From NCBI GenBank assembly GCA_020850315.1, contig JADZEY010000098.1, positions 1 to 63,565 on the forward strand: a stretch of 63,565 bases of DNA. Direction: 5' to 3'. Source of the stretch: Armatimonadota bacterium (GTDB lineage: Bacteria; Bacteroidota; Ignavibacteria; OLB7). Shown piece by piece: positions 34,971 through 41,224 of this stretch. A program made the position numbers and the translations under genes. Each line of letters begins with the position of its first letter. Position 1 is the first letter of the stretch. The notes beneath the pieces were generated by a model. It searched no databases, was not told the origin of the DNA, and saw only the letters and a program-made list of their open reading frames with translations.

Positions 34971-35323
34971 TTCAGCTTTGGCTCCCTCTCTCCCACCCGA
35001 CCAATGAAGTGGAAGCAGCAGCGGCATCAGTTGGGTGAGGGCGTGCCGATAGAATCGGCATCTTCGAGAGGAGGTGAGGGCGGGCTGCGAACGAGGGCAA
35101 GCATGAACAATTGCCCGTCCGGCGGCTCCACTCATACTTCGACGGGCTCAGCATGAGCGGAGGGGTGTTCCGGTGGGATACCGATTATTTTTCCTTTTTG
35201 GCTTTGGCCCCCTCTCCCACCCGACGAATGAAGTGGAAGCAGCAGTAACATCAGCTTGGGAGAGGGCATACCGATAGAATCGGCATCTTCGAGGGGGTGA
35301 GGGCGGGCAGCGAACAAACGCGG
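34971..35323. repeat. Two direct copies of a ~120-bp repeat with a partial core between
   Basis: Copy R1 (34973-35092) and copy R2 (35200-35323) share ctttggc..ccctctc, cccacccga.caatgaagtgg, a gccgat-aga-atcggc mini-hairpin, and a ggtgagggcgggc end. Between them, 35121-35165 is a shortened copy of the MITE core in which the segment between two TTCGAC motifs is lost. An inverted relative of R1/R2 lies at 39776-39876, on the other side of the helicase gene. The rest of 34905-35381 holds only the BNR terminator and the short helicase leader. Confidence 0.8.
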
Positions 35324-35381
35324 AACAGCCACCGCAGAAGAATGCTTGCACTACCCACCAAGAACTTCCTACTTTTGCTCC

Positions 35382-38300
35382 ATGGCTGAGATCACCTTTA
35401 CGCTTGACCAACAAAAGGCGCACGACGCAACGCGCCACCTTTCCATCACCGCAAACGCTGGCTCGGGCAAAACCCGTGTGCTGGTTAGCCGATACTGCGA
35501 TATCGTGGAGCTGATGGGGATCAGACCTGCCGAGATAGCCGCCATCACGTTCACCGAAAAAGCCGCCAGCGAGCTACGCACCCGCATCGCCGAAGAGCTT
35601 GAACACCGCCTGGGGGATGAATCCCACAAAACCAACTGGGAGAAACTGAAAAAGGCTCGCGAAGGATTCACCTCCGCAATGGTCTCCACCATCCATGGCT
35701 TCTGTTCGCAGCTGCTGCGCGAGTATCCAATCGAGACCGACACCCCACCGAACTTCCGTGTGGTTAGCGGCTACGAGCGGCGTGTGATGGAGCAAGAATC
35801 GCTGGAGGAAGCGATTGAGGCCGCGCTCACAAGCCCGCAGAATGACCCAACGCACCTCACCTCGGCCTACCAAACCGCCCGCCGAATTAACCGCGAGTTG
35901 CTGGAGGATATCGTCAAGATGATGTTCCACAACCGCGAGCCGATCACCTTCAGCCGAACCAATGGTGTGCTGAGTCGCAGCAAGAAAGAGACACTGGCAC
36001 TGTGGGATTCGGCGATACTGACAGCAGTGGACTCCGTGCTCCGCTCACCCCAGGTAATGGATAGCTTCCAGAATCTTATCGGGTTCATGAAAACCCCCGA
36101 TGCTGCCGCTACTAAATTTCAGGAGCTACGCCAGGCAACAACGGTGATCAACATCCTGGAAGGGTTCAGCAATCTGAAAAGCATGATGCTGACCAGAGAG
36201 GGCTCCCCGAGAAAGACCGGGGTTTTCCGGTTATCGCGCGATGAGGTTGCAACGCTGAACCCGCTTGCCGAGCCGATCCAGCGCGCCATCGAACAACTGA
36301 AGCCGCTGCTGGAAAACCCCACCGACCCCACGCTGCACCCACAACTGCTTGACGACACAGCAGTGCTTCTGGACATTTTTGATGATGCAGTCCGCACCTA
36401 CGAACAACGGAAATCCCGCCAGAACGCTTTAGACTTCGAGGATCTTCAGCTGCGCCTGTTGTTCGCGCTGCAACGCCCGGAGGATCACAAGGCCATCACC
36501 GGGCGATTCAAAGCGATTATGGTGGATGAATTTCAGGACACCAACGCCTTGCAGTACACCGTGGTGAACCGCCTGCTTAGGGGATTGAACGCGCTGGGTC
36601 GGCTGTGCATTGTTGGCGATAAAAAGCAATCCATTTATGGTTTCCGCAATGCCGAAGTTGAGGTGTTCGACCGCGCCGACCGCGACATCGTTGCGCAAAA
36701 CACTCAGGAGAAACGGGAAGGGCAGCCGCTGGAGTACCGCAACGCAAAACTCATAGGTGCTTCCCACCAGGAGCAGCTTGGGCTTATCCGGCTTGATGCC
36801 TCCTTCCGATTGCTCCCTTCCAACTGCGCCTACGTCAACCTTGCCTGCGCGCCAGTTATGGCTCCAGAAGGGTTGTTCAACTTTGGAGTTCCCTACGAGC
36901 CGCTGGTCTGCGCACGACGCTCCGAGGGAGCGGGAGGGGTGGAGGTGATACTGGCACGGAAGTCGGACGATGAATCGAGCGATGACCCCCTCCCCCAACA
37001 GGAGTCAAGCGACAGCACCGTAGAAGAACCGAAATCGGAATCAGCAGAGAACGAATCGGTCAGCGAAGCAGAATTGATCGCCCGGCGGATTCTTCAGCTT
37101 GTCACTTCGGGCGAGCCAGTGGTGTGGGAATCGCCCACAAAAGGTGAGCCGGAACAACCGCGCCCGGCACGATTTGGTGACATTGCCATCCTTTGCCGCA
37201 AGCGAAGCAGTTTTCAGGAATTGGAGGATACCTTCCGCGCCCACGGCATTCCGTTTTTGAACTTCGGCAGTTCGCGATTCTACAGTTCGCAGGAGATTTA
37301 CGACATCGTCAACTACCTCAGCGTTCTGCTGAACTCCAACAATGACGTAGCCTTGTTGGGGCTGCTCCGTTCGCCATACTTTGGCGTGTCCGATCTGGAA
37401 CTCTATCGAATCGGCACAACCGCTGCAGGGCGTTCGTTGTGGGAGCGGACGGTGCAGCAGGCCACGCAGCCCAACGCGCACCCATCGCTTCGCCGTGCGG
37501 TGGAAACGATTGAGGAAGACCGCGCAATGGCCGGGCGAATCCCCATATCGCTGCTGATGCGGCGGGTGCTGGAACACACAGGTTGGCGCGGTGCGGTGAT
37601 CGGGACCGAGCGTGGCGAGCAGGCAATGGCAAATATTGACAAGCTGATGGAGCAAGCGCGTGCGTTCGAGCAGCGCGGGTTCACCAACTTGTACGACTTC
37701 GTTGAGCAGATACGCTCCCAAATTGATGGCGACGAGGTGGAGTCGGAAGCACCAATTAACACAGGGCGCGATGCCGTGTTGCTGATGACCATGCACGCAT
37801 CGAAAGGGTTAGAGTTCCCGATTGTTTTCCTTCCCGCACTCCACTCCCCACCACGCCGAACCGATACAATCATGTTCGACCGCGACTTGGGGTTTGGATG
37901 GAATTGGAAATTCAACCACAACGACTACCGCCCAACCATTGCCCTGTTTATGCGGTTGCGGAACAGCGAACGCGAACGTGCCGAAGAAGCCCGGCTGTTC
38001 TACGTTGCCACCACCCGCGCCCGCGACCTGCTGATCCTTTCCGGCAATGTTGAGAAAATGAAGCAGGGGACAATGTTAAGCTGGGCCACCGACCCGTTGG
38101 GTGGCCTTCCCACCGACAACGGAACCGTTGCGATCACCTCACCACTCTATTTTTTGAACGAGGATGGGAGAAGAAAATCGTCCGGGATGTGGCAGCAAAC
38201 GGTGAAGGTCTGGTATCAGTTGCCGGAGCAACCCCGCTACGAGGCGGAGGCGCGCCCTGCCCAAGTTTTCCGCAACGATTTAGTGAACATTGGGGAGCTT

Positions 38301-39269
38301 CCGGCGCACGCCAGGGGGGACATCTACTCCGCCACGCAGTTCTTGGTGTATTCCCAATGTCCAACAAAGTATTATCTGAAATTTCGGCTTGGCATCCCCG
38401 AGGACTTGACGGCGGCCTACGATCCTGAGTTCGACCCGAACACTCGTGACAGCGAAGATGGGACCACCTTTGCGCGGCTGTTCCGCCGCGCCGCGCTGCG
38501 GGTTGATGAAATGCTTGCCGAACTGAACGAAGCCACTGGCGATGAAGGGAACCAAGCGCACGGCGTTGGAGATGAATTCCTTGAAGCCATCTACGGCCAA
38601 CACCTTGACTCCATCGCCGCAATCCTTGAAGGTGAGGAGGCCGCTGCCGAGCCTGAGACCGCAACCGACACTCGCGACGCAGTGGAGCGCGTTGCCGACG
38701 ATGTGTTGCTAACCGAACCGCTCCCCACGGACCAATCCGAGCGGATGCGCCAACGGCTGATCGCCACCTTCCGGGGAATACTGAACAGCCCGCAGGCGCG
38801 GCAAGCTATCGCGCCGGAAGGGAGCCAAAGCTATGTTGAGCATGAACTTCGGATTCCGTTCGAGCAAGATTTTGTGTTGGGGGTGATGGATCGTTTGATT
38901 GTGGAGAGCAACGGCACAATCACCGTGCTTCATTACAAGACTCGCCGCTTGGAAGCCGATGCCCTGAAGAAGAGTGCCGACGAGTATCTGCCGCAGCTTC
39001 GGTTGTACGCTTATCTGGTGTCGCTACTGCGCCCGGAGCAGCGGACGTTCCGTTCTGTTCTGCTGTTCACTCAGCATCCCGACGTGCCACAGGAGTTCAC
39101 CTTCAGCCGATTTGATATGCACCGCACCGAGGCCGAGCTTCGCACCGCCTTCAGCGATATTCGCGATCTTAGCTACACCTCGCGCGGGCGGCTTCCGCTA
39201 CGCACCCCGCACTGCCCCAACTGTCCGTACTGGATTGAAGAGGCCTGCTTGCTGGGGAAGAAAGGGTGA
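35382..39269 (+). CDS. UvrD/AddA-like helicase with PD-(D/E)XK-type nuclease domain
   Basis: About 1295 residues from ATG 35382; the frame opens with TTG at 35346. SF1 helicase motifs are complete: ANAGSGKT (24-31), AAITFTEKAASEL, VDEFQDTN, VGDKKQSIYGFRNAE, TMHASKGLEFPIVFLPAL, and LFYVATTRARDLLIL. The C-terminal 300 residues are a RecB/AddA-like nuclease region: SATQFLVYSQCPTKYYLKF, GVMDRLIVES (D1170) and LHYKTRRL. The usual Asp of the DYK motif is His here (H1184), so cleavage activity is doubtful. Four cysteines (C993, C1278, C1281, C1289) resemble the Fe-S staple of AddB/Cas4 nucleases, with a wider last gap. A role in double-strand-break processing is inferred; no addB-like partner is in the window. 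The gene is flanked by repeats. Confidence 0.88.
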   Translation: MAEITFTLDQQKAHDATRHLSITANAGSGKTRVLVSRYCDIVELMGIRPAEIAAITFTEKAASELRTRIAEELEHRLGDESHKTNWEKLKKAREGFTSAMVSTIHGFCSQLLREYPIETDTPPNFRVVSGYERRVMEQESLEEAIEAALTSPQNDPTHLTSAYQTARRINRELLEDIVKMMFHNREPITFSRTNGVLSRSKKETLALWDSAILTAVDSVLRSPQVMDSFQNLIGFMKTPDAAATKFQELRQATTVINILEGFSNLKSMMLTREGSPRKTGVFRLSRDEVATLNPLAEPIQRAIEQLKPLLENPTDPTLHPQLLDDTAVLLDIFDDAVRTYEQRKSRQNALDFEDLQLRLLFALQRPEDHKAITGRFKAIMVDEFQDTNALQYTVVNRLLRGLNALGRLCIVGDKKQSIYGFRNAEVEVFDRADRDIVAQNTQEKREGQPLEYRNAKLIGASHQEQLGLIRLDASFRLLPSNCAYVNLACAPVMAPEGLFNFGVPYEPLVCARRSEGAGGVEVILARKSDDESSDDPLPQQESSDSTVEEPKSESAENESVSEAELIARRILQLVTSGEPVVWESPTKGEPEQPRPARFGDIAILCRKRSSFQELEDTFRAHGIPFLNFGSSRFYSSQEIYDIVNYLSVLLNSNNDVALLGLLRSPYFGVSDLELYRIGTTAAGRSLWERTVQQATQPNAHPSLRRAVETIEEDRAMAGRIPISLLMRRVLEHTGWRGAVIGTERGEQAMANIDKLMEQARAFEQRGFTNLYDFVEQIRSQIDGDEVESEAPINTGRDAVLLMTMHASKGLEFPIVFLPALHSPPRRTDTIMFDRDLGFGWNWKFNHNDYRPTIALFMRLRNSERERAEEARLFYVATTRARDLLILSGNVEKMKQGTMLSWATDPLGGLPTDNGTVAITSPLYFLNEDGRRKSSGMWQQTVKVWYQLPEQPRYEAEARPAQVFRNDLVNIGELPAHARGDIYSATQFLVYSQCPTKYYLKFRLGIPEDLTAAYDPEFDPNTRDSEDGTTFARLFRRAALRVDEMLAELNEATGDEGNQAHGVGDEFLEAIYGQHLDSIAAILEGEEAAAEPETATDTRDAVERVADDVLLTEPLPTDQSERMRQRLIATFRGILNSPQARQAIAPEGSQSYVEHELRIPFEQDFVLGVMDRLIVESNGTITVLHYKTRRLEADALKKSADEYLPQLRLYAYLVSLLRPEQRTFRSVLLFTQHPDVPQEFTFSRFDMHRTEAELRTAFSDIRDLSYTSRGRLPLRTPHCPNCPYWIEEACLLGKKG

Positions 39270-39358
39270 TGCACATCCCTCTACATGGCAAGCCACGTTG
39301 CGTATCTGTGGTAAGAACAACCATTTACTACTTCTCTGCGCCTGCGCGCCGTATCATT

Positions 39359-39440
39359 GCACACGACACACACCGTTGGGGTGACGGTGTGCTCGCCCAA
39401 CGGAGCCGGCCATTTTTTTTGGCTGGCTCCATTTTTTTTG
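39359..39440 (+). ncRNA. Candidate structured RNA element, copy 1 (short)
   Basis: 82 bases. Hairpin I is acaccg...cggtgt (39371-39391) and hairpin II is ggagccggcc...ggctggctcc (39402-39430), followed by A-T8. Hairpin I has an A-T pair where copies 2 and 3 have G-C. Upstream sequence differs from the other copies; only a -10-like TATCATTG remains, so this copy may be silent. Confidence 0.5.
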
Positions 39441-39467
39441 GAGGGGGCAGCACACCCAGCCGCAGTG

Positions 39468-39636
39468 ATAGAGTAGTGATGGTTTTCATCGCCCAGATTT
39501 TTTTTCATCCCCACAGAAAAACGCTTGCATCTTCCCCGAACCCGAAGTATTGTTGCACACGACACACGCCGATGGGGTGACGGCGTGCTCGCCCAATCGG
39601 GGCCGGCCATGTTTTAGGCTGGCCCCACTTTTTTTG
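39468..39636 (+). ncRNA. Candidate structured RNA element, copy 2
   Basis: 169 bases, nearly identical to copy 3. The first 95 bases form a conserved leader with CTTG, 20 bases, then TATTGTTG, close to the Bacteroidota promoter pattern TTTG-N19..21-TAnnTTTG. A transcript from there would be about 80 bases. Hairpin I is acgccg...cggcgt; hairpin II is ggggccggcc...ggctggcccc, then ACT7. Hairpin II has a G-C pair where copies 1 and 3 have A-T. No open frame is conserved. It could instead be a mobile palindromic repeat. Confidence 0.5.
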
Positions 39637-40100
39637 TCTCCCCCCCCCCCGTTCCCTGCTTCGGCTTCTCACCGAACCTCACCCTCCGCTCATGCTGAGC
39701 CCGTCGAAGCCTGTCCTGAGTCTGTCGAAGGGTATGAGTGGAGCCGCTGAACGGGCAAGGTTTCGCTGTTGCCCGCGTTCGCTGCCTGCCCTCACCCCAG
39801 CCCTCTCCCAAGCTGGTGATACTACTGCTTCCACTTCATTCGTCGGGTGGGAGAGGGAGCCAGAGCCGAAAAAGGGAAAGTGAGATGCTTCGGCTTCCCA
39901 CCGAATCTCACCTCCGCTCTTGCTGAGCCCCGTCGAAGCCTGTCCTGAGTTTGTCGAAGGGTATGAGTGGAGTCGCCGGACGGGCAAATTTTCACTCTTC
40001 TTGATTCGGCACTCGACATTTGCCATTCGACATTTTCCTCACCTCCCGCCTTCGCAGGAATGACAGCCACAAAATTTTCGCACGCTCCTTTTATTTGAGT
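39637..40100. repeat. Cluster of dispersed repeat cores
   Basis: Gene-free. 39683-39765 and 39911-39985 are two direct copies of the tccgctcatgctgagccc / cctgtcctgag / tgtcgaagggtatgagtgg core also found in elements A and C. Between them, 39776-39876 is an inverted relative of repeats R1/R2 at 35 kb. 40011-40036 contains two copies of a c(a/t)cgacatt motif that recurs next to the heptanucleotide repeat at 51.7 kb. Short frames here translate repeat DNA only. Confidence 0.75.
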
Positions 40101-40269
40101 ATAGAGTAGCGGTGGTTTTTATCGCCCAGATTTTTTTTCATCCCCACAGAAAAACGCTTGCATCTTCCCCCAACCCGAAGTATTGTTGCACACGACACAC
40201 GCCGATGGGGTGACGGCGTGCTCGCCCAACGGAGCCGGCCATTTTTTTTGGCTGGCTCCACTTTTTTTG
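40101..40269 (+). ncRNA. Candidate structured RNA element, copy 3
   Basis: 169 bases matching copy 2 across the full length, including the CTTG-N20-TATTGTTG promoter-like leader, hairpin I (40200-40220) and hairpin II (40231-40259) followed by ACT7. Differences from copy 2 are few and include the paired A-T for G-C change in hairpin II. It ends 31 bases before the stop of the convergent methyltransferase gene, so it could also serve as that gene's 3' end structure. Confidence 0.5.
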
Positions 40270-40300
40270 CCCCCCGTTTCCCCCCTGTTCCTCCTCTGTT

Positions 40301-41095
40301 TTACCCTTTTTTCTCAGCAATCCATGTGGTGTGCATGTCGGTGTCGTCCTGGCGGAAGCGGCGGCCCATGGCGCGGGTTAATCGCTGCGGTTTCAGCCCG
40401 GCAGAAGTCATCATCGCCTCAAGTTCTTGGCGCAGATAGAGCCGCACCACTTCGGGGCGATCGGCATAATAGACGGTCTCTTGGTCGGGGGCAATCCAAG
40501 CGGGGTGGCTCATCATGGTGTTCTGCTCTGGGTCCCAACTGTTCTCCACCACAAACGTTCCCCCTGCAAGCGGATCGCTCCAAGTGCCGAACGATTCGGC
40601 GTTGTCGGCCGTGAACGTATCCAAGTAGAGTTTCCCCCCGGGCTTCAGCCATCGGCTGATGTTCTGGAGTAGTTGGCGGTTCTGCTGGTCGCTGCCGTAG
40701 CCGAAACTTGTGTTGAGCGACAGGACAATATCGAACGTGGTGCTGGGCTGGAACGTGAACATATCGGCAGCGATGAACTGGGCCACAACGCCACGCACGG
40801 CAGCGGTGCGGGCGCAATGCAGCACCAACGGCTCGGAGCGTTCCAGCCCCACCGCACGCGCGCCCATCATTGCAAGCCGCATCACCACTTCGCCGCAACC
40901 GGAGCCAAGGTCTATCAGGTCGGATCCGGGGGTGATCTGAAGTTGGCGGGCAATGCTGCGGGCAACATTTTCCCATGCTGGCTCCTCATCGGGGTTGCCG
41001 TAGTACTCACGCTGCAAAAAGTCGCTCCACCAATTCCAATCTTTGATTACTGGGATTTGATCGGCGGGGAATGTTCCGGTGCTGATTGTGTCCAT
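40301..41095 (-). CDS. Class I SAM-dependent methyltransferase
   Basis: 264 residues from ATG 41095 (MDTISTGTFPADQIPVIKDW); the frame opens at 41188. Motif I is DLIDLGSGCGEVVMRLA (SAM-binding glycine loop). Motif II is VGLERSEPLVLHC, followed by IAADMFTF and FDIVLSLNTSFGYGSDQQN (motif IV), then LKPGGKLYLDTFT. This pattern fits small-molecule methyltransferases of the Methyltransf_11/25 type. The C-terminal beta region (VVENSWDPEQNTMMSHPAWI, RLYLRQELEAMMTSAGL) is typical of the same group. The substrate is unknown. It follows the MoxR gene by 129 bases on the same strand and may be in its operon. Confidence 0.88.
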   Translation of the reverse strand: MDTISTGTFPADQIPVIKDWNWWSDFLQREYYGNPDEEPAWENVARSIARQLQITPGSDLIDLGSGCGEVVMRLAMMGARAVGLERSEPLVLHCARTAAVRGVVAQFIAADMFTFQPSTTFDIVLSLNTSFGYGSDQQNRQLLQNISRWLKPGGKLYLDTFTADNAESFGTWSDPLAGGTFVVENSWDPEQNTMMSHPAWIAPDQETVYYADRPEVVRLYLRQELEAMMTSAGLKPQRLTRAMGRRFRQDDTDMHTTWIAEKKG

Positions 41096-41224
41096 GGCGC
41101 GAAGATACGGTGGGATGATGGGATGACGGGGCAAACCACGTTTCGGAAATAAACGCAATGGGGAATCGGGATGCAGTGCGCGCCCCAATTCCCCATTGGA
41201 TACGTTGGCATTCCCTCCCCCCCC

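Follow-up and report, generated by a model that had tools for sequence, protein, structure and literature searches.

In an environmental bacterium of Bacteroidota/Chlorobiota type, why does the roughly 1-kb gap that separates two convergent protein-coding genes hold the same hairpin-forming unit three times? The gap lies within the window (the whole 63,565-nucleotide stretch of DNA that was analysed), between genes for a UvrD helicase with a C-terminal PD-(D/E)XK nuclease domain (35379-39269, + strand; Pfam UvrD-helicase 1.1e-56, PDDEXK_1 7.8e-16) and a SAM-dependent methyltransferase (40301-41188, - strand; Pfam Methyltransf_25 1.9e-14), both considered here as context only. A preliminary description of the locus had read the units as a small RNA family and had named a palindromic mobile repeat as the alternative. 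What we find looks like a real, structured and conserved candidate family of three tandem sRNAs, ordinary in kind, new, and absent from Rfam.

Results

The 90-nt unit is present at 39351-39440, 39547-39636 and 40180-40269, and a repeat comparison bears out the earlier claim of three copies with two common hairpins. A 39-nt core occurs three times, with no occurrence expected from shuffles, and copies 2 and 3 are alike over 175 nt (39468-39642 and 40101-40275), including about 80 nt upstream. Every copy consists of hairpin I, a short linker and an intrinsic terminator, all on the + strand. Copy 1, which begins about 90 nt 3´ of the helicase stop (39269), would encode an sRNA at 39361-39440, with hairpin I at 39369-39391, outer CGA/TCG pairs at 39364-39366 and 39393-39395, the linker, a terminator hairpin at 39402-39430 and T8. 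The candidate sRNAs of copy 2 (39557-39636; terminator hairpin 39599-39626, T7) and copy 3 (40190-40269; terminator hairpin 40231-40259, T7) have the same parts. The repeats, the alignment, covariation, terminator scores and fold scores point to all three.

Other repeated sequence is found in the gap as well. A second small hairpin with a T tract lies 5´ of copies 2 and 3 (39476-39492 and 40109-40125); the differences between these two hairpins preserve pairing, and the sister species described below is without that form. A unit of about 229 nt is present twice at 39657-39999, between copies 2 and 3 (TGCTTCGGCTTC...GTCGAAGCCTGTCCTGAGT.TGTCGAAGGG), where GTCGAAG motifs are abundant, and related pieces are also found elsewhere in the window. 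An inverted repeat, CCCTCTCCC/GGGAGAGGG, at 39790-39866 recurs near 35210-35275 and is likely a dispersed palindromic repeat. Within this repeat region, CTCACCCCA (39791) and the sRNA loop are complementary, which may be a coincidence.

Among 99 relatives, the sole carrier of the element was G001 (Chlorobiota bacterium MAG-306), the one other species of the genus in the comparison, referred to as the sister species, in which the three copies keep their order and their two neighbours. Across its whole length the RNA shows 89-99% identity in this species pair (99% for copy 3, over 40190-40268); for the first 39 nt the figure is 100% in copies 2 and 3 and 97% in copy 1. Hairpin I is almost unchanged and better conserved than the terminators, and the 60-70 nt upstream are 90-92% identical. 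By comparison, identity falls to 73% across 556 four-fold degenerate sites of the helicase gene and to 37.5% in the stretch from copy 2 to copy 3, with most of the remaining gap unalignable. Since the identity of the element lies far above both values, the element is, by this measure, under strong purifying selection. Three hairpin-I positions set copy 1 apart from the other two copies, and they are the same three in each species, so copy 1 split off before speciation. Upstream, species-specific letters common to copies 2 and 3 suggest gene conversion between them. One terminator pair is G-C in copy 2 of both species and A-U in all other copies.

Covariation was assessed over 20 base pairs in six aligned copies, the three described here and the three orthologous copies of the sister species. 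Hairpin I contains ten pairs, made up of CGA/TCG, a small internal loop and seven pairs, and the terminator hairpin contains ten or eleven. Standard pairs occupy 120/120 cells (20 pairs in six copies), with none broken. Both sides change in four pairs, at columns 12-28 in hairpin I and at 44-70, 45-69 and 48-66 in the terminator, and one side changes in two; slid partner columns, used as a control, gave 0-1 two-sided pairs and 26-44% pairing. The two compensatory pairs noted previously among three copies are thus confirmed, and become four two-sided pairs once the orthologous copies are added. It had also been proposed that more copies with no further compensation would favor an inert or mobile repeat; the outcome was the opposite, as two further pairs proved compensated once the sister-species copies were included. 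Since a terminator must keep its stem anyway, the support for hairpin I comes from its own compensated pair and not from those of the terminator. RNAalifold, unprompted, returned the identical structure plus one more pair, and the six single RNAs, taken from near the supposed start, gave the same fold with z of -3.8 to -6.0 against shuffles. A four-pair pseudoknot of the loop with the linker, UGGG/CCCA, could also form, in which case the loop would be hidden; the columns involved are invariant across the six-copy alignment, which discriminates neither way.

The primary-sigma promoter of Bacteroidota has TTTG at -33 and TAnnTTTG at -7 (cited in PMC7366714). Copies 2 and 3 do contain the CTTG-N20-TATTGTTG arrangement pointed out in the preliminary description, with one mismatch per box relative to this consensus. 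The putative promoter region of copy 2 (39492-39556, + strand) comprises the end of a T8 tract and this arrangement, with the -7-like box at 39548-39555; it shows 92% identity with the sister species over 39492-39552 and recurs in copy 3. The corresponding region of copy 3 (40115-40189, + strand; -7-like box 40181-40188) is 90% identical over 40115-40185. Upstream of copy 1 (39300-39360, + strand) the -7-like box is TATCATTG (39352-39359), with no -33 TTTG match and no TTTG or CTTG at the right distance; these roughly 60 nt are conserved between species (90% identity over 61 nt, versus 61% just 5´ of the region). A sigma-70 scan found no site, and a comparison of the regions upstream of tmRNA, RNase P and SRP did not settle a local promoter consensus.

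Hairpin II and its T tract, likened earlier to an intrinsic terminator, indeed form strong terminators: those at the three copies, on the + strand, are the strongest terminator-like sites in the stretch, and T tracts lie 3´ of the stems on one strand only. Given a terminator for each copy, the promoter-like boxes of copies 2 and 3, and TATCATTG and the conserved upstream sequence of copy 1, the element is likely to be transcribed. No reading frame is conserved across the copies: one-base indels in the linker shift the frame, and the frames diverge 3´ of the linker, so the unit is not protein-coding. In one frame, every copy contains a stop codon.

The whole genome (4.24 Mb, 138 contigs) contains no further copies, and its other matches, of 14-26 nt, are chance. 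In the other three genomes of the family the helicase gene is present and the element is absent beside it. Elsewhere, covariance models turned up no convincing copy in two sets of class genomes (245 and 391) or in 395 genomes of the phylum, and a model of hairpin I alone found nothing convincing in the 391 class and 395 phylum genomes. The search for more copies proposed in the preliminary description thus yields three per genome, at one locus, in two species, and the family is apparently limited to one genus. Several candidates were set aside. Full-model matches in the class scored 18-26 bits, and those inspected were a terminator-like hairpin or less, without hairpin I; a single weak phylum match to the hairpin-I model (26.5 bits, L094) has a different sequence and was taken for chance; and pattern matches in Caldilineaceae and Gemmataceae MAGs, from a scan of a public collection, have unrelated flanks. 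Rfam 15 gave no match above the gathering cut-off in the whole window, with sub-threshold matches only at E up to 10 (e.g., Qrr, 17 of 50 bits), and phage, plasmid and viral-contig searches returned no match.

The hairpin-I loop, UGGGGUGA, is invariant in all six copies and exposed in the predicted fold, so base pairing is our default guess for the action of the RNA. An antisense search of both genomes with the exact 11-base pattern CCGTCACCCCA gave 11 and 13 matches, of which three per genome fall in the element itself. The remaining matches are mostly inside long reading frames, with one in a CRISPR array. In these two genomes no match stood out as a gene-start site, which leaves the base-pairing step a guess without support from this search. 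The sister species has a CRISPR-like array (L059, G001:C18 near 28915) with repeats of type ATCATCCCCGCACATGCGGGGAAC; one spacer holds CATGGGGTGACGG, and its match to the sRNA loop is probably chance. Hfq was detected in neither genome, and each has two RRM_1 proteins. Those of the window genome (L108, L111) have glycine-rich tails and counterparts in the sister species.

Discussion

We consider it very likely that the element gives rise to a structured, transcribed RNA. The more specific reading, that these are three tandem sibling sRNA genes with base pairing as the default action, is the one we favor, with somewhat more confidence than doubt. The earlier small-RNA reading proves the best fit to the conserved upstream sequence, the covarying core, the terminator, the synteny and the lack of a conserved frame, and both species have at least two similar units in one gap, each with its own terminator. 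In this model, every copy would have its own promoter, with TATTGTTG or TATCATTG as the -7-like box. The RNA would start a few bases 3´ of that box and end at its own intrinsic terminator, giving about 75-80 nt folded into a stem of ten pairs interrupted by a small internal loop, the end loop UGGGGUGA, a C-rich linker (CGCCCAA) and the terminator hairpin. The invariant G-rich loop, the linker, or both might pair with mRNAs carrying UCACCCC-like sites, probably near translation starts, although this is a guess by analogy. The three copies could serve dose or separate control. Given two RRM proteins and no detectable Hfq, a helper protein, if there is one, would be of the RRM type, like the partner of FopS in Bacteroides.

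The same small RNA could instead act by binding a protein, as a decoy or scaffold for an RRM protein or a repressor, for example, rather than by pairing with mRNAs. The near-invariant loop and flanks are as in a protein site, a threefold copy number would suit titration, the genome encodes two RRM proteins, and the CCGTCACCCCA search gave no clear antisense target. However, conserved loops suit base-pairing seeds too, no known protein site was recognized in the RNA, and a loop lacking GGA is unlike a CsrA-type decoy. We regard this possibility as unlikely, though a serious one.

We have considerably less confidence in a stack of terminators that arose by local duplication between convergent genes, with no separate use for hairpin I. 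The strength of the intrinsic terminators, the convergent neighbors and the position of copy 1 some 90 nt past the helicase stop would suit such a stack, but hairpin I is more conserved than the terminators and has its own compensated pair, the upstream regions are about as conserved as the terminators, and the T tracts serve one strand only. Still more doubtful is an element that acts as DNA, as a cruciform or protein-binding site. Compensatory changes would preserve a DNA palindrome too, but the tolerated GC/GU differences (43-71 and 49-65) suit RNA, and the T tract on one strand, with a promoter-like box upstream on the same strand, suits a transcript.

The loop UGGGGUGA resembles a Shine-Dalgarno sequence, GGUGA being complementary to the 16S rRNA 3´ end. 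There is a slim chance that the RNAs are mimics of ribosome binding sites or otherwise act on the translation machinery, exerting genus-specific translation control rather than regulating single mRNAs. The palindromic mobile repeat (REP- or MITE-like) raised as the alternative at the outset is the least credible reading of all: the units are palindromic, multi-copy and intergenic, but they are not dispersed, numbering exactly three at one syntenic locus in each genome, with no phage or plasmid match and no convincing one in the class or the phylum (roughly 390 genomes each).

How does a set of tandem sibling sRNAs compare with known systems? RbpB is an RRM protein. Bacteroides thetaiotaomicron is without an obvious Hfq (PMC7366714), and RbpB there works with 14 FopS sRNAs (PMC11697453). 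Like the candidates described here, FopS and GibS of B. thetaiotaomicron are multicopy paralogous sRNAs with closely similar members, in a Bacteroidota-type host with RRM proteins (PMC11697453). They have their own promoters, which for our candidates are inferred from sequence. FopS differs in having fourteen members at many loci, whereas here there are three in tandem, in a comparison made by description only; it also has a known R1 seed, a target (susC mRNAs) and a partner, RbpB (PMC11697453), while our candidate is known from sequence alone. OmrA/OmrB (88 and 82 nt), PrrF1/PrrF2 and AbcR1/AbcR2 (reviewed in PMC4211561) are likewise similar sRNA genes side by side, but belong to Pseudomonadota, and the Omr RNAs interact with Hfq, undetected here; for these the sequence comparison is the Rfam scan. 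The Streptococcus csRNAs (reviewed in PMC4211561) are also several siblings, partly clustered near a DNA helicase gene (ruvB), but in another phylum, and the helicase here is UvrD-type and probably a mere neighbor.

A further sRNA family would leave the general picture unchanged. The sRNAs of uncultured Chlorobiota-type bacteria are little described, however, and the locus offers a small, well-bounded, covariation-supported candidate set in a lineage that has RRM proteins and in which no Hfq was detected. It may thus provide a second place, beside FopS of Bacteroides, to study how such lineages use multicopy sRNAs.
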